A stretch of 20,777 nucleotides of DNA, from the IMG/VR virus record IMGVR_UViG_3300003409_000047, positions 72 through 20,848 of that record; one strand, given 5' to 3'. Origin of the DNA: a virus. The notes below the pieces were generated by a model that saw nothing but the letters and a program-made list of their open reading frames with translations, was not told the origin of the DNA and did not search any database. A program made the translations under genes and the position numbers. Positions 1 to 6,577 of this stretch are shown piece after piece; within the stretch, counting starts at the first letter, position 1, and each line of letters starts with the position of its first letter.

Positions 1-332
1 CCGATTCGTATATCCACGCCCAAGAGCTCAGCCATGTAACGAAGCTGGATAACAGTTGGGTTCCACGCATCCGTATATAGGAAATAATCTCCATCTTTAA
101 TTTCTCCTTTACAAAACATCTCGCCAATCTGTTCGAGTTGTTTAGATTTATAAACGTTAGTACCACCGAAGTTAAGGAAAGCCCCAGGCGTAGTAGCCTG
201 AGGCGTTTCCCCACCGCTAATTACTTTAACTTCTTTACCCGTAGACCTTTTCAACAATGTCGGTACATAGTCTTTCCATTGTTTAGTATAACGTGTATCA
301 ACTGCTTCGATGTCTACGATGTAAATAGTCAT
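1..332 (-). CDS. Conserved phage protein of unknown function, C-terminus beyond the window
   Basis: The 110 codons visible start at an ATG at 332, preceded by AAGGAAG as ribosome-binding site and only 3 bases after the stop of the upstream gene. The C-terminal part lies outside the window. The protein opens with a hydrophobic strand (MTIYIVDIEAVDTRY), then a segment with PQATTPGAFLNFGGTN, and ends here with DYFLYTDAWNPTVIQLRY followed by AELLGV. The alternation of short hydrophobic strands and helices, and the TDAWNP..IQL segment, loosely recall the N-terminal half of GT-B glycosyltransferases, but no catalytic residue can be assigned. It is the last visible gene of the block with the DpdA-like and QueD-like genes, so a role in DNA base modification is possible. 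That is inference only. Confidence 0.75.
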   Translation of the reverse strand, partial: MTIYIVDIEAVDTRYTKQWKDYVPTLLKRSTGKEVKVISGGETPQATTPGAFLNFGGTNVYKSKQLEQIGEMFCKGEIKDGDYFLYTDAWNPTVIQLRYMAELLGVDIRI

Positions 333-566: not shown

Positions 567-1049
567 TTATTGTGGTTTAGGATAAAAAATTGAACAGCCA
601 TTTTCGCCATCTTCGGCGACATCAATCTCTACAAAGCGGCCGGGATACTTCGCAGAAATTTTCTCATACAGTTCATCCGCAATCATTTCGCATGAACGAT
701 GATTTAGAACGAGCACTTCACTGTCGGTTGTACTCTCTCCATTATAGAGTCTTTCCATCCAGCGTTTGAACTGGATGAACTCGATGTCTCTATCGTTGTG
801 GAACACCTCGATGCGCACCCGGAAATGAAAGATATGGCGATGAGGCACACCAAGAAACGACACATCGTCCCAATCACCTGTTGCCAATTTCGGGTCACTA
901 TCTGCTCCTGGATACATATGAACACCTTCTTTACGGAAGGTAACCCATATACTTCTATTAGCTTTACTTAGCGGATTATTCATTTTTGCGTCTTCTTCTT
1001 TCATTCGTCTCATCATATAGTTGTGATAACTTTCTTGTTGTACACTCAT
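567..1049 (-). CDS. QueD/6-pyruvoyltetrahydropterin-synthase-like T-fold protein
   Basis: This 160-residue protein follows the layout of the PTPS/QueD T-fold family. A first strand carries a histidine (WVTFRKEGVHMYP, His44). A HxH pair in PHRHIFHFRVRIEV (His70, His72) corresponds to the family's HGHxY...V segment. IEFIQFKRWMERL (89-101) matches the VIDFxDLK helix. SCEMIADELYEKI (119-131) matches the TAENLA helix. VAEDGENGCSIFY (144-156) matches the final VxETPxxxAxY strand with its glutamate (Glu146). His44, His70 and His72 could be the zinc ligands. The family's DHxxLN element and catalytic Cys are not obvious, so activity may differ. QueD makes 6-carboxytetrahydropterin on the preQ0 pathway, which fits the DpdA-like gene two genes upstream. 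The fold assignment is by eye. The start lies 7 bases after the preceding stop, with only a weak ribosome-binding site. Confidence 0.6.
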   Translation of the reverse strand: MSVQQESYHNYMMRRMKEEDAKMNNPLSKANRSIWVTFRKEGVHMYPGADSDPKLATGDWDDVSFLGVPHRHIFHFRVRIEVFHNDRDIEFIQFKRWMERLYNGESTTDSEVLVLNHRSCEMIADELYEKISAKYPGRFVEIDVAEDGENGCSIFYPKPQ

Positions 1050-1056
1050 TATATTA

Positions 1057-1575
1057 CTACTCTACTATTTTGTCAAGACCATACTTTGCCCAATCTGTGA
1101 ATTTAGTGCGATCTTTTAGATCGTGTAAACTGTGACACCAAACACCTGGATTGGACGCTTTAAATCCTTTGTCGTCAATTTTAACCATTGTGTTATAATT
1201 CCATTGATCGATGTAAGGAATCACTACACGGAGTTGCGGAATAAAATGATTATATTCTACTAACGGTCCGTCTAAAAATTCTTCGGAAACATCTAAAGGA
1301 ATATCCAAACTACAAATGATATCCTGTTCCAAGAAATGTTCAATCATTTCTTCCCATGCTTCATAGTCTTCTGCTATTTTTGGTTGGTAACTATGATTAG
1401 AACCGAAGAAGATGTGTTCACATTCTTCTTTCTCATACCAAAGTTGAATGTCAGCAGGATCTTTTAAACCTGTTACAAACAATGTTTTTAAATTGTAAGC
1501 AGGAGTCTTTTCAACTTCATATCCTACAAAAAAGTCAACGTCACTATTAACACCCGAAGCATAGTTTCTTTTCAT
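1057..1575 (-). CDS. Conserved phage protein of unknown function, 172 aa, in the DpdA-like operon
   Basis: The start overlaps the stop of the DpdA-like gene by one base (TAATG), so translation is probably coupled. The protein is acidic, with alternating strands and helices: KTLFVTGLKDP (30-40), HIFFGSNHSYQ, AWEEMIEHFLEQDIICSLD, IPQLRVVIPYI, and a conserved-looking C-terminal segment around NPGVWCHSLHDLKDR. This order loosely resembles half a TIM barrel. Its place between a TGT-fold and a T-fold enzyme makes a link to 7-deazaguanine chemistry attractive. A relation to QueE was considered, but the radical-SAM CxxxCxxC motif is absent, so that enzyme activity is not supported. I recall relatives of this protein in T4-like phages but no function. 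Confidence 0.7.
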   Translation of the reverse strand: MKRNYASGVNSDVDFFVGYEVEKTPAYNLKTLFVTGLKDPADIQLWYEKEECEHIFFGSNHSYQPKIAEDYEAWEEMIEHFLEQDIICSLDIPLDVSEEFLDGPLVEYNHFIPQLRVVIPYIDQWNYNTMVKIDDKGFKASNPGVWCHSLHDLKDRTKFTDWAKYGLDKIVE

Positions 1576-3101
1576 TAGACAGTTTCCTTTGCTAGTCCTT
1601 CATGATATAGTTCTTCCAATTCGAGAAGTTTCTCGTCATTTGGATCGTTAAAATCTTCAACACCGCCTGTTTTTTGATCTTCATCAAACAAGTTGTTGAA
1701 GGTATTATTCGCAACGCCGCCTTTCAAACGCATACCCATCATGTTATTCAACATGGGCTTTGCTTGTTCAATCATTTCAAAAGGCTTTTCGCTCGCGAAC
1801 AATTCTTCTACGAAGCGATCAAAGTACAATACATTACGTGGAACCCAATCACTGAATTCATCACTCATGTCTGAATCTTTGATCTTACGCCACTCTCTCC
1901 AATCTGGTTTGAATCGAGCAGTTTCGATATCCATTAAGTTGTTAGCACGTTGTACCGCAACAATGTGACAGTATGTATTATGTGCCATCATTAGTGCATA
2001 ACTAAAACTATCCCAAGATGTTTTTCCAATCTTGCCTATTTTGTTTTCCATTCCTTCTTTGTACCAGCAGACGTCACCTTGTGTGATTCTTCGTCCGATT
2101 TCTGATTCGAAAGGGAAGGGGATGTCAAAAGCCTGGCTAATGGCTTTGTTGTCGGGTGCTTTGTCCATGATGACTGACCACCGCTTGTTTGTGTGTTGTG
2201 CGTTTGTGTACACAAGTCCGTGTGCTGTTGCGATAAACGGTGAGGCGCAATCAAAAGATATGGTAAAGTTTTCATTAACGGTCTTTCTTACTTGTCGTTG
2301 AATACTAGTCAAATAACACGACCAGTCTAGTTGAGCTGTGCCTAAGAAGTGCATCCAGTCTCTATCATCTAACAGTTTTTCGTCACGCAATGTAATGATA
2401 CGTTTAAGTGCGATTTCCATATCACACATATTTTTACCACCCATTGCCCACCCTTCTGTTGGAAGATGTTTAACTGCTTGATACCAAGCATCAGCAGTTT
2501 CCCAATCACTACCTTGTAATACGTTTAAGAACTTTGTTTGTCCTAAGCGATTACGAATAAAGTAGTCATTGTTGTGTAGTGTTTTATTTAAACAATCATC
2601 AAAACTTTTTAGTCCTGTCTTAGGCGAATGAATATGATCGCTTGCCCAAGTCGGAACATCGAGTAGCATTGACCAATCAGCAGTTAGTTCAAGCCAGTTT
2701 AAAATTTGACTACGAGTTTTATCAGCACTAGCACCTTCAAAATTATGCCAATCAAACTTAAGAACACCTTTACCAATCTGATATCCGCCTGAGTCGCCTA
2801 AGATAACAGTATTCTTTCTGTCTCTATTTTGAATCATAGAATCTTGTACAAGTGTTTTGTCAAGATCTAGTTGTGCGTGGCCTGCTGAATACAAACCATA
2901 CTTGTATGTAAAATAACCTTCTTCTGGATTTAGAAAGTTCATACCTTCAATGCCGCGATCAAAGCCTTGCGGAATACGATCCTGTGGAACGAATTCGCCT
3001 TGTCTTTGTTTAGATATGTATGTGGAATAGAAAGTACTAATCGCAGGCAAATACACTGCGTAGTCTTTCTGTAACGGTGTTAAGTTTACTGGTGCTTTCA
3101 T
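1575..3101 (-). CDS. TGT-fold DNA 7-deazaguanine transglycosylase (DpdA-like) with clamp-binding-type peptide
   Basis: The 508-residue protein shows the landmarks of tRNA-guanine transglycosylases in order. LGDSGGYQIG (101-110) matches the substrate-binding DSGGFQ motif. MLLDVPTW (145-152) matches the FDECTP region. FLNVLQGSDW (191-200) matches GIVQGG. GWAMGGKNM (217-225) matches GYAIGGL. HFLGTAQ (251-257) matches LMGVGTP. ISFDCASPF (281-289) matches the nucleophile segment FDCVLPT with Asp284. ALMMAHNTY (369-377) matches the TIHNLY helix. The CxCxxC zinc site of tRNA enzymes is not seen. In phages, DpdA members of this superfamily exchange guanine in DNA for preQ0-type bases, protecting it from restriction. 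Unusually, residues 466-473 (NTFNNLFD) repeat the polymerase's C-terminal peptide. The start lies 8 bases after the clamp stop, with no clear ribosome-binding site but a CCTAAATA box 5 bases before the ATG. Confidence 0.85.
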   Translation of the reverse strand: MKAPVNLTPLQKDYAVYLPAISTFYSTYISKQRQGEFVPQDRIPQGFDRGIEGMNFLNPEEGYFTYKYGLYSAGHAQLDLDKTLVQDSMIQNRDRKNTVILGDSGGYQIGKGVLKFDWHNFEGASADKTRSQILNWLELTADWSMLLDVPTWASDHIHSPKTGLKSFDDCLNKTLHNNDYFIRNRLGQTKFLNVLQGSDWETADAWYQAVKHLPTEGWAMGGKNMCDMEIALKRIITLRDEKLLDDRDWMHFLGTAQLDWSCYLTSIQRQVRKTVNENFTISFDCASPFIATAHGLVYTNAQHTNKRWSVIMDKAPDNKAISQAFDIPFPFESEIGRRITQGDVCWYKEGMENKIGKIGKTSWDSFSYALMMAHNTYCHIVAVQRANNLMDIETARFKPDWREWRKIKDSDMSDEFSDWVPRNVLYFDRFVEELFASEKPFEMIEQAKPMLNNMMGMRLKGGVANNTFNNLFDEDQKTGGVEDFNDPNDEKLLELEELYHEGLAKETV

Positions 3102-3109
3102 AATAATAT

Positions 3110-3847
3110 TTAGGCCGCCTGTGCTGGAATGATATATTTGTAATTTGCTAGTCCGCTGTCTAATTCAATTTGGATAGCGCCATCGTTACTAAGACTCATC
3201 TTAGTATTGTTTACATCAGCAATCTTAAGAATACTTAGGATTGGAAGTACTGGCCAAGTCCAGCCGCGATCTAAAGTACCTTCAACATCAGTAGCAAAAG
3301 TAAATTCGCCTGCGTGTGAACTAGCATCACCAAAACTAAATTTCAAGTTGCCTTGATCTGTTTTAGCAAGGAATGTTGGATGCTCTGGGTTTGCGCCAGC
3401 TTGAAAGCTCATACGCTGTACACCAGCAAGTGTTGGAACAACAGTAACGTTCCAGTTAGCGCCACGGAACTTAACAGTTTTCATCTTCTCGTTAATAATT
3501 TCCATGTTCATAAAACGATAATCGTTTTTGAAGTCGCCATCTTTATTTTCAAAGTGGATGCCTACTGGAACTGTTTCTCCGTTACGATCTGCTGTAGTAA
3601 TACTGATCTTAGCATCTTCTTTGTATTCACTACCATCTAGCAAATACTTTAGTTTGTTAAGTTGTGGCATACCAAAGATACCAATCATGTCTGCGTATGG
3701 ATTATGTGTTTCTGCTTCCATAATCACAGAGCGGTCGTCAGCCATTGAAAAGATCGAAGTCTTACTTTCTTCACCTGTAACCTTTACGGTAGTAAGAAAG
3801 CCTAAGTTCTGTGTATGGCTTACAATGTCTTGTAAAATGTCTTTCAT
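3110..3847 (-). CDS. 45: DNA polymerase sliding clamp (gp45-like)
   Basis: This 245-residue protein lies directly downstream of the polymerase gene. It shows repeated beta-rich segments typical of a PCNA/gp45 ring subunit, including ETHNPYADMIGIFGMPQL, AKISITTADRNGE, KTVKFRGANWNVTVVPT, WTWPVLPILSILKIADVN and LANYKYIIPA. T4 gp45 is 228 residues, so the length fits. The protein would form a trimeric ring on DNA, holding the polymerase and recruiting other factors, in T4 also late transcription. Its clients bind through short hydrophobic peptides, and two proteins in this window carry near-identical candidates (polymerase and DpdA-like). It has its own near-consensus promoter at 3872-3900. The ribosome-binding site before the ATG is AGGAGA, about 8 bases upstream. 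Confidence 0.8.
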   Translation of the reverse strand: MKDILQDIVSHTQNLGFLTTVKVTGEESKTSIFSMADDRSVIMEAETHNPYADMIGIFGMPQLNKLKYLLDGSEYKEDAKISITTADRNGETVPVGIHFENKDGDFKNDYRFMNMEIINEKMKTVKFRGANWNVTVVPTLAGVQRMSFQAGANPEHPTFLAKTDQGNLKFSFGDASSHAGEFTFATDVEGTLDRGWTWPVLPILSILKIADVNNTKMSLSNDGAIQIELDSGLANYKYIIPAQAA

Positions 3848-3907: not shown

Positions 3908-6577
3908 TTATTCAAAATCAAACAAACTGTTAAATGTGTTGTCTTGCCTTGTTTGACTGATGTCCCAGTCAAGCACACCGATCAAGTTACCGAGTTTTTC
4001 ATCAATAACTGTTCTTTCCATTTGGGAATCATCAAATGGTAATTCTTTGAACCATTCTGGAAGCCTAAGTTCGTCAACCGGATAAGCCACACTAGTAAAT
4101 CCCATTGGGTTATCCTTTACTTTACAAACAATAACTTTAGCACCGTCCGTGATGTTCATTGAATACTTGTCGCCGTTCATACGCTTGAGTGTGTTCCAGT
4201 TAATACTTGCTCTTACGTGTCCTGGCATATTTGCTTTACCAAGTTTCTTTTCCTTTGCTTGGTATTCGGTAATCTTATTAGCACGTTTAGGCGAACCTTT
4301 CTCCCAACCCGGCCTTCCATGAAAGTCTGTTCTAAACTCAGTAATGTAATCTAGTACTGCTTCCTTTTCTTTACCTGACAACACCATTTCTAATACTTCT
4401 TTTAAAAAGTCTTGAATTACAACAGGAGTATCTGATCGCTTAAGATCTAGACCCATTGCCTTGATGTTACCTTCTTTACCGTCTGTATCTACACGGAAAC
4501 CTTCCATGTCATAGTACAGTACAGCATAACGTTTCTTGGTAATAAACAGTCCGCTTACAGCAACTACTTCTCGACCTGCTTTAATTACTTCGCCTCTACT
4601 CTTAGGACAATGAAACTTGTCTAACATCATTTTAGGAAAACTTGCTGATGCTTCGTCCGCGATTTGATCGTAAAGTTTCACGATACTATCTTTATCCCAC
4701 GGAATTTGTCCTTTTTCGATTTCATTACGAAGAACTGGATACGCACTAAAATAGCAAGAGTCAGTGTCGCCATAGATAACTGCTTTACCTTTGTAGTCGT
4801 ATTCACCTGTAATAATTTCGTTAATCTTACTAGCCATGTGTTTAACAATAGTACGACCAGTTAGTGTGGTCGACTGTCCGATTCTATTATCAAAGAATCT
4901 ACATCCTGGATTAAGAATAGCACCATACAAACTGTTCAAGTTAATCTTCTTAACTAGCTGACGCTTGTCCCAATATTCGATTTCAATTTTATTTCCAGCA
5001 TCTTTGGCTTCTTTTAGTTTGGCTTGCATTTCTTTACGTTCAGCATACCAACGTTTTAGTAGTCCAGGAATGATACCTTCTTTTTCGTAAGTAAAAATTG
5101 TACCGTTAGCACTAAGCATCCACGGTTGATTACTCTCAAAAATTAAGTCATAAATTTGAGCGCCTGATAACGTATCGCTGTTACCATCTTCCCAGTCGAT
5201 AGTAATTTCTTTTGCTACATTACGTTCCATAACAAGTTCGTATTCTAAACTACCAAACTGCCCTTCCCATGCCGCGGCAAACGACTTCTTATTACGAATC
5301 ATTTGTTCGTCGATGTAGTTCTTGGTATAATCCTGTCGTAGTTGTCCTACGATAGTTTCTGGACCCATGTTCAACGCACGAATCGCTGACGGATACAGAG
5401 AGTTGATATCTACGGAGCCAATCCATTGTGCGATGCCTTTTTTAGGATACGCAACATAAGCACCTGCCGCAGGTTCACTGCCGGGCTCTCGCCTAATCCT
5501 GTTAGGAACGATAAAGCCACGTCTGTGTGCCTCGTTGATAATACCTTGTTCTGTAACAGCAACAGCACCCATTGTTGTTTGTAGCATAACAGTATTTTCA
5601 TGAGCAACTGTGTTTGCGAGATCAATAAACTTTAGTTTCTTATCTAGTTTGTCCAACAGCGCAGTATCCTGTCTGTTATATTCAATGAACGTTCTAAAGT
5701 CATTGTTGTATAACTGATCAAGTGTGCCTTCGTAAACAGTTTTATTTTCGCCGATTTCCATTTCGCCAATAGCATCTAGTCGATATGTATGACGTTCTTC
5801 ATAGGTATATTTGCGATATAGTTCAAGACTGTCTAAGTGTACACGACCGTAAAAGTCATACGTAACACTTTGTCTACCAAACTTTTCGTACTCACGCTTC
5901 TTAGGAAGTTGATCCCATAAGCAAAAACGTCTAGTATCCTCTTTGCTTAGTACTTTAGTTACACGATTAACAGTATACGGAATATCAAAGCCTTCACTGT
6001 TCCAACCAGTTAAAATGTCAGCATCTTGAATTAGGTCCAAGAAAGCATCTAAAAGCTCACCTTCTGTTTCAAACAAGTAAGTGTTGTCAAACTCTTTAAC
6101 AGCATCTTGTGCTTCTTCCATAGACATTGTTTTGGGAGGAATCGCAAAACAGACTAATGTATCTAACCACTGAAGATGAATAGCAATAGATGTAATTGGC
6201 ATAAACGCATCTTCTGGCGATGCGTAACCACGTTCCGGATCAAAGTCGACCTCAATATCGAAAAACGCAACATTTAGTTTAGGTGCGTCTTGATTGAGAT
6301 AGTTGTCCTCTAAACATCTAAAGATAGGATTGATATCACTTTCGTATAGTTTTTTATTGCTGTAGATTTTTTGTTCTTTGTGGAAGTCTTTTAGATTTTT
6401 ACACGTTACTCGAGACAATGGTTCTCCATGAATGCTAGTGTACTTTCCTTTAGCATCTGGATAATAAAAAACATATCTTGCAGGGTATTCTTTAAATTGA
6501 CGCTTACCTTCGGCGTCTCGTTCGACAACATGAATAGTGTCGGTATCACGGTTGTAGAAAGCATCTACGTAACTCAT
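3908..6577 (-). CDS. 43: Replicative DNA polymerase, family B (gp43-like)
   Basis: The 889 residues match T4 gp43 (898) in length and motif order. Proofreading exonuclease: Exo I FFDIEVDF (Asp107, Glu109), Exo II TGWNSEGFDIPY (190-201), Exo III EYNRQDTALL (299-308). Polymerase: motif A SVDINSLYPS (388-397), motif B KRQLVKKINLNSLYG (538-552), motif C VIYGDTDSCYFS (600-611). The extreme C-terminus, DNTFNSLFDFE, resembles the clamp-binding tail of T4-type polymerases. The gene is intact, with no intein or homing endonuclease. The start at 6577 is supported by AAGGAGAT 3 bases upstream, and a hairpin at 6593-6612 may be an autoregulatory operator. Confidence 0.97.
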   Translation of the reverse strand: MSYVDAFYNRDTDTIHVVERDAEGKRQFKEYPARYVFYYPDAKGKYTSIHGEPLSRVTCKNLKDFHKEQKIYSNKKLYESDINPIFRCLEDNYLNQDAPKLNVAFFDIEVDFDPERGYASPEDAFMPITSIAIHLQWLDTLVCFAIPPKTMSMEEAQDAVKEFDNTYLFETEGELLDAFLDLIQDADILTGWNSEGFDIPYTVNRVTKVLSKEDTRRFCLWDQLPKKREYEKFGRQSVTYDFYGRVHLDSLELYRKYTYEERHTYRLDAIGEMEIGENKTVYEGTLDQLYNNDFRTFIEYNRQDTALLDKLDKKLKFIDLANTVAHENTVMLQTTMGAVAVTEQGIINEAHRRGFIVPNRIRREPGSEPAAGAYVAYPKKGIAQWIGSVDINSLYPSAIRALNMGPETIVGQLRQDYTKNYIDEQMIRNKKSFAAAWEGQFGSLEYELVMERNVAKEITIDWEDGNSDTLSGAQIYDLIFESNQPWMLSANGTIFTYEKEGIIPGLLKRWYAERKEMQAKLKEAKDAGNKIEIEYWDKRQLVKKINLNSLYGAILNPGCRFFDNRIGQSTTLTGRTIVKHMASKINEIITGEYDYKGKAVIYGDTDSCYFSAYPVLRNEIEKGQIPWDKDSIVKLYDQIADEASASFPKMMLDKFHCPKSRGEVIKAGREVVAVSGLFITKKRYAVLYYDMEGFRVDTDGKEGNIKAMGLDLKRSDTPVVIQDFLKEVLEMVLSGKEKEAVLDYITEFRTDFHGRPGWEKGSPKRANKITEYQAKEKKLGKANMPGHVRASINWNTLKRMNGDKYSMNITDGAKVIVCKVKDNPMGFTSVAYPVDELRLPEWFKELPFDDSQMERTVIDEKLGNLIGVLDWDISQTRQDNTFNSLFDFE

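Follow-up and report, generated by a model that had tools for sequence, protein, structure and literature searches.

A clamp-binding-type peptide shared with the DNA polymerase suggests that phage DpdA enzymes locate phage DNA by riding on the replication clamp

The DpdA-like guanine transglycosylase encoded in the window analysed here (the whole stretch of 20,777 nucleotides taken from IMG/VR virus record IMGVR_UViG_3300003409_000047) was found to carry in its tail a peptide closely resembling the C-terminus of the DNA polymerase of the same phage, which suggests that such enzymes reach phage DNA by holding on to the replication clamp. The explanation that we regard as the best, and as quite probably correct, is that this peptide docks the enzyme on the phage's own sliding clamp and thus targets the base exchange. 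An xFxxLF(D/E) motif in a flexible DpdA tail, of the same kind as the polymerase end, would dock the DpdA in a hydrophobic pocket of the PCNA-type clamp encoded next door; such a tether would keep the enzyme, with its TGT fold, on phage DNA that is double-stranded and newly replicated, and would thereby direct the exchange of guanine for a 7-deazaguanine to the phage genome. Docking in the clamp pocket is proposed by analogy with the peptides of T4 gp43, gp55 and gp33 on gp45, and we infer that the window DpdA binds the clamp in this pocket, is coupled to the fork and modifies DNA.

As summarized in Table 1, the three genes lie on one strand. The preliminary description of this DNA had placed the clamp gene between those of the DpdA and the polymerase, and this arrangement was confirmed by the PCNA-fold model of the clamp; the order polymerase-clamp-DpdA on a single strand was further observed in 200/200 loci. 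The 508-aa DpdA-like protein gave no Pfam match above the cut-off and no PHROG match, and the clamp gene matched phrog_12062, of which the function is not annotated, with no informative family match. As PDB sequence searches with the DpdA and clamp profiles returned nothing useful, folds were compared instead. With the AF2 model of the window DpdA (pLDDT 89.3, pTM 0.88), all best Foldseek matches were tRNA-guanine transglycosylases (prob 1.0, E 7.5e-8), including the Z. mobilis TGT, with a modest TM-score (0.41/0.54), and the clamp model matched PCNA and sliding clamps (prob 1.0, E 5e-11). Among 54 DpdA homologues, D103 (DSGG) and D284 (ISFD) were invariant, and we likened them, by motif and not by superposition, to the TGT catalytic aspartates, D102 and D280. 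The 7-deazaguanine genes were counted in the genomes of relatives, the window's own record spanning only 20.8 kb: FolE was present in 10/10, QueD in 9/10, and QueC was clear only in the Vibrio phage. The PA5oct annotation additionally includes QueE, and a deazaguanine synthesis and incorporation system has been described for this phage (PMC7824862). Considering the TGT fold, the invariant aspartates, FolE and QueD in the relatives and the PA5oct description, DpdA is a reasonable name for the 508-aa protein, and DNA base exchange is predicted for its lineage.

Table 1. Features of the window (plain coordinates) and of other loci (locus or genome handle before the colon)
Feature	Coordinates	Strand	Basis
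DpdA-like guanine transglycosylase, 508 aa	1575..3101	-	AF2 model, Foldseek, invariant aspartates
Clamp-binding-type peptide NTFNNLFD (DpdA residues 466-473), putative	1683..1706	-	sequence; F472 conservation
Predicted disordered tail holding the peptide, residues 458-484	1650..1730	-	pLDDT <50
C-terminal helix (residues 490-506; L492, L495 and E496 conserved)	1584..1634	-	model, alignment
Sliding clamp, 245 aa, PCNA fold	3110..3847	-	AF2 pLDDT 92.9; Foldseek
Family B DNA polymerase, 889 aa	3908..6577	-	PF00136 1.5e-34; phrog_262 2.5e-204
Polymerase C-terminal peptide NTFNSLFDFE	3911..3940	-	C-terminal [LF]F core shared by 145/145 polymerases
172-aa gene immediately downstream of dpdA	1057..1575	-	no Pfam or PHROG match
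160-aa gene, conserved downstream of dpdA	567..1049	-	phrog_17812 (function not annotated), 1e-32
Gene truncated by the window edge	3..332	-	by eye like PA5oct EST35_0317
PA5oct EST35_0317	L082:11617-12678		glycosyltransferase group 1, weak, 1.1e-3
PA5oct polymerase	L082:3605-8831		annotated as two genes
Klebsiella phage K64-1 polymerase	L131:4410-7412		~42% identity
HNH-type protein	L254:11616-12017; L191:2163-2570; L031:6290-6712; L034:7016-7342; L208:12363-12782		PF01844, 1.2e-4
~175-210-aa family	L163:6887-7489; L234:8761-9354; L070:11277-11870; L151:11524-12138; L236:12399-12953; L179:10170-10748; L059:12846-13367		no Pfam assignment
~134-146-aa protein	G003:77757-78197 (in L021/L243); L062:15165-15567		no Pfam match
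Amidoligase-like protein, Vibrio phage 2.275.O	L083:11726-12838		PF12224 just below cut-off

The DpdA peptide NTFNNLFD and the polymerase C-terminus (QDNTFNSLFDFE, i.e. NTFNSLFDFE) were equal at seven of eight residues, exactly as had been claimed; only 1 of 20,000 DpdA shuffles matched the last 10 polymerase residues as well, and the best match among the other window proteins tested did not exceed 4/8. The two genes use the same codon at four of the eight motif positions, three of the differences being synonymous. These differences indicate that no recent DNA copy is involved and that the likeness is one at the protein level, and gene conversion was rejected as the source of the shared peptide on the same ground.

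With regard to the setting of the peptide, the preliminary description had spoken of a polar, probably flexible C-terminal tail. The tail is indeed polar and predicted to be disordered, but the DpdA peptide itself is not terminal, being followed by about 35 residues that include a predicted helix. In the AF2 model the DpdA fold stops ahead of residues 458-484, and the peptide is thus placed outside the TGT fold rather than buried in it. Among the 54 divergent homologues, F472 was the sole residue conserved at 90% or more after position 391. In a set of 60 DpdAs, N466 was retained in 58, F472 in 56, F468 in 48 and L471 in 42, and residues 473-491 varied in both sequence and length. Conservation in this set extended to R458, G461, G462, L492, L495 and E496, and hence the tail may have further functions.

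The peptide was then compared across loci. Single-sequence scans of IMG/VR with the PA5oct and Vibrio 2.275.O DpdAs gave no matches, and alignment-based scans succeeded; the sample of 226 loci contained 145 distinct DpdA/polymerase pairs. All 145 polymerases terminate in an [LF]F core. The DpdA peptide was nearly always kept, often varying with the polymerase C-terminus, and was retained at about 33-93% DpdA identity in tails whose flanks diverge. With a matrix built from the polymerase C-termini alone, scores exceeding the 1% shuffle level were obtained for the tails of 80 of the 145 DpdAs, versus 0/580 control windows of those DpdAs. The strict motif [FYM]xx[LFM][FY] was present in 107 of 141 distinct DpdA tails, and the other 34 mostly keep the xF core (either HF or an LF that lacks the aromatic residue upstream); about five of the 141 are degenerate (L137, L152, L245, L251 and L252). 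Most DpdAs have the peptide in mid-tail, and some have it at the last residues (L083, L135, L140, L164, L204 and L273), a shift that would be expected of a movable docking motif.

All seven polymerases having FF for LF were paired with a DpdA that also has FF (L047, L134, L135, L136, L140, L182 and L200), as exemplified by the polymerase/DpdA pairs NEFFEF/QQFFEF (L135) and NEFFEF/QAFFEF (L140), each at the protein end, and NTFTKFF/NTFGKFF (L047). FF appears somewhere in the tail of four other DpdAs, at the motif core in just one (L141). On the DpdA tree, the polymerase FF changes were independent in three cases, with a parallel DpdA change in two or three and an opposite one in none; three such cases are too few for the covariation test to attain significance. 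A change of another kind was seen in Vibrio phage 2.275.O, in which the polymerase ends NNNDLFGW and the DpdA NNTDLFDW. In one subclade the DpdA has NISNSLF or NEFNRMF, whereas the polymerase keeps F and L, indicating that the DpdA does not track the polymerase residue by residue.

To assess specificity, the C-terminal 60 residues of the gene-like ORFs in four large genomes were scanned for the strict motif. In PA5oct, G003 and G005, the carriers were essentially the polymerase and the DpdA, the few other ORFs being probably spurious or chance matches; in G001, the polymerase was picked up but not the DpdA, of which the peptide is NTFNKHF. In a survey of 94 neighbour ORF families, the polymerase, the DpdA and one HNH family stood out. 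The other enriched groups were small and were either spurious-looking or among the candidate carriers described below, other large families were near zero, and the family of the 160-aa gene was essentially without the clamp peptide.

A comparable arrangement was found in phage 9g, in which the gene order is also polymerase-clamp-DpdA. Its DpdA resembles that of the window as a phage DpdA seen here beside a clamp gene, and ends LQDLFDE; unlike the window DpdA, it is shorter (317 aa), belongs to another subfamily and is accompanied by a beta-type clamp. 9g-type DpdAs are encoded adjacent or close to a beta-type clamp gene. Of the 13 divergent 9g-type DpdAs aligned, 12 terminate in LF, LFV or LFDE, and most have Q in the motif; L314 does not vary at all and F315 hardly does, and the rest of the C-terminus is variable. 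The ends read IQELF (PaMx25, Iggy), IQGLF (CA8), AQELF (HD01), IMELF (K4PH164), QMELF (a Stenotrophomonas phage), EQRLF (RHEph04), QPGLF (VpKK5), QQGLFV (BcepGomr), QPELF (Me-ZS1) and QRRLF (Dp-1), the exception being Edwardsiella phage ZHS, with QSLW. Judged from their residues, these ends resemble beta-clamp-binding peptides, for which a weak consensus, C-terminal QLxLF, has been reported (PMC4549789). In seven 9g-type loci, a hydrophobic-F pair near the terminus was found in 7 of 157 gene-like ORFs, five of them DpdA. The clamp motif was looked for and found absent in DpdA2 of Vibrio phage nt-1, which is not encoded beside a clamp gene; its hhalign comparison with the window DpdA gave an E of 0.24, the H-LG and ISYD/ISFD motifs being aligned. 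The DpdA of mycobacteriophage Typha has a C-terminus without such a peptide, and that of Phosso, encoded a long way from the clamp gene, has the end IVEGLF, which is at most a weak form.

The 9g DpdA has been demonstrated experimentally to act on DNA, inserting preQ0, or archaeosine together with Gat-QueC (PMC6884629). With Gat-QueC it modified E. coli plasmids in the presence of no other 9g replication protein, and the phage clamp is thus not strictly required there; the host beta clamp might substitute in this assay. The word "clamp" is absent from the main text of that paper (PMC6884629).

It is also quite possible, though short of probable, that the DpdA is clamp-bound without following the fork, the clamp serving to discriminate phage from host DNA or to retain the enzyme on double-stranded DNA at clamps left after replication. 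Such a role would accord with T4 gp55 and gp33, which are clamp clients acting away from the polymerase (PMC2988020), and with T4 alpha-glucosyltransferase, whose clamp contact is not the main cause of its glucosylation share according to PMC13216743; the computed evidence, however, does not separate such a role from fork coupling. Since shared covarying peptides need only a common ligand, the peptide could instead dock another partner, for example the clamp loader, the single-strand-binding protein or a host protein. We consider this unlikely, because the clamp gene stands between polymerase and DpdA in every one of the 200 loci, and because the 9g-type phages, with their different clamp type, have peptides like the beta-clamp consensus (PMC4549789).

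That the match is a coincidence, or a functionless gene-conversion relic between genes that are neighbours, might be argued from this proximity and from the shortness of the motif, but is hardly credible and was already disfavoured, given that half of the motif codons differ, that the peptide persists over the above range of DpdA identity despite diverging flanks, and that it is absent from the DpdA control windows. Nor does the peptide appear to serve the transglycosylase structurally or at a dimer interface, which we hold to be very improbable: TGTs dimerise and other tail residues of the DpdA are conserved, but residues 458-484 are disordered in the model and the position of the peptide relative to the fold shifts from mid-tail to the last residues. 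Many phage DpdAs are, we conclude, clients of the clamp, and we infer that they bind it physically.

Peptides of this kind are well characterized in T4, in which the polymerase, gp55 and gp33 bind gp45 via interchangeable hydrophobic-acidic C-terminal peptides, with a divergent linker bearing the clamp peptide in gp55 and with a clamp epitope functional at an internal position in a gp55-gp33 fusion (PMC2988020). The gp43, gp55 and gp33 proteins of T4/RB69 are thus alike to the present pair in having short peptides common to unrelated proteins, flexible divergent linkers and a phage clamp as the partner, but they are a polymerase and late-transcription proteins that perform no base exchange, and their motif is at the very C-terminus. 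By analogy with T4/RB69, the window polymerase C-terminus presumably binds the window clamp. In Klebsiella phage K64-1, which was not among the DpdA matches, a related polymerase ends QDFGFFS, and a clamp-type polymerase end probably occurs independently of a DpdA.

Clamp-tethered DNA modifiers are already known. T4 alpha-glucosyltransferase, a phage DNA-modifying enzyme on a phage sliding clamp, binds gp45 (Sommer 2004; confirmed by PMC13216743, which cites it), and this direct precedent makes a clamp-bound DpdA a variation on a known theme. It is an unrelated enzyme that glucosylates hydroxymethylcytosine, and the accessible part of PMC13216743 describes no peptide shared with the neighbouring polymerase; as its clamp contact is not the main determinant, caution is due in assuming a large effect of the tether. 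DNMT1, tethered to PCNA, likewise modifies bases on newly replicated DNA (PMC9690074), but is a eukaryotic methyltransferase. IS transposases bearing QLxLF at the C-terminus are, like the 9g-type DpdAs, mobile-element DNA enzymes with beta-clamp peptides (PMC4549789), but use the host clamp and serve transposition.

No description of a clamp-bound DpdA was found in the literature searched, most subscription journals lying outside the search. The added interest is that two unrelated DpdA lineages and two clamp types would be involved. The matter bears on the redirection of a tRNA-modifying fold to double-stranded DNA and on the choice of phage over host DNA by DpdA, to which a clamp tether would be a simple answer, and restriction and mass-spectrometry assays already exist for phage 9g in E. 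coli. If the proposal is true, the C-terminal peptide would provide a quick signature of DNA-acting transglycosylases encoded beside phage clamps.

A broader proposal, advanced tentatively and with more doubt than expectation, is that clamp tethering is general among phage DpdAs and evolved repeatedly, at minimum once with a PCNA-type and once with a beta-type clamp, and that DpdA forms a replication-coupled modify-and-cut toolbelt with an HNH nuclease and perhaps another putative nuclease family on the clamp. The HNH-type protein, encoded downstream of DpdA, has a comparable peptide at its C-terminus (NPNFSKFFEEV, NPMFNNFFEEV, NQMFTSLFEEV, NRMFSDLFEEV and, in L208, NPNFNKHFEEIKHEQ), and by this likeness is a possible clamp-bound nuclease. 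The ~175-210-aa family near DpdA, nuclease-like by eye only, has mostly LF-type ends (KALFEAAA, RNLFEGL, QNLFAYDN, NTTLFE and APLFED; IRHFELV in L179).

Several further observations were made around these loci. The two copies of the ~134-146-aa protein downstream of DpdA, 42% identical to each other, end DEMFYSLFEEQE and DTHFDSLFEVIQ, the G003 copy lying between DpdA and folE. The amidoligase-like protein encoded after DpdA in Vibrio phage 2.275.O starts with a similar-looking peptide, MFNELFDFNDRY, at its N-terminus. A suspected gp55-like sigma of 204 aa in L126, which ends EDFETLFTGLKTN with the same peptide, was dropped because no relative was present among the loci. By eye, the gene cut off by the edge of the window looks like EST35_0317, the gene after DpdA in PA5oct. 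The PA5oct polymerase has a homing endonuclease between its two annotated genes, and its C-terminal piece retains the clamp-type end HFDSLFGW.
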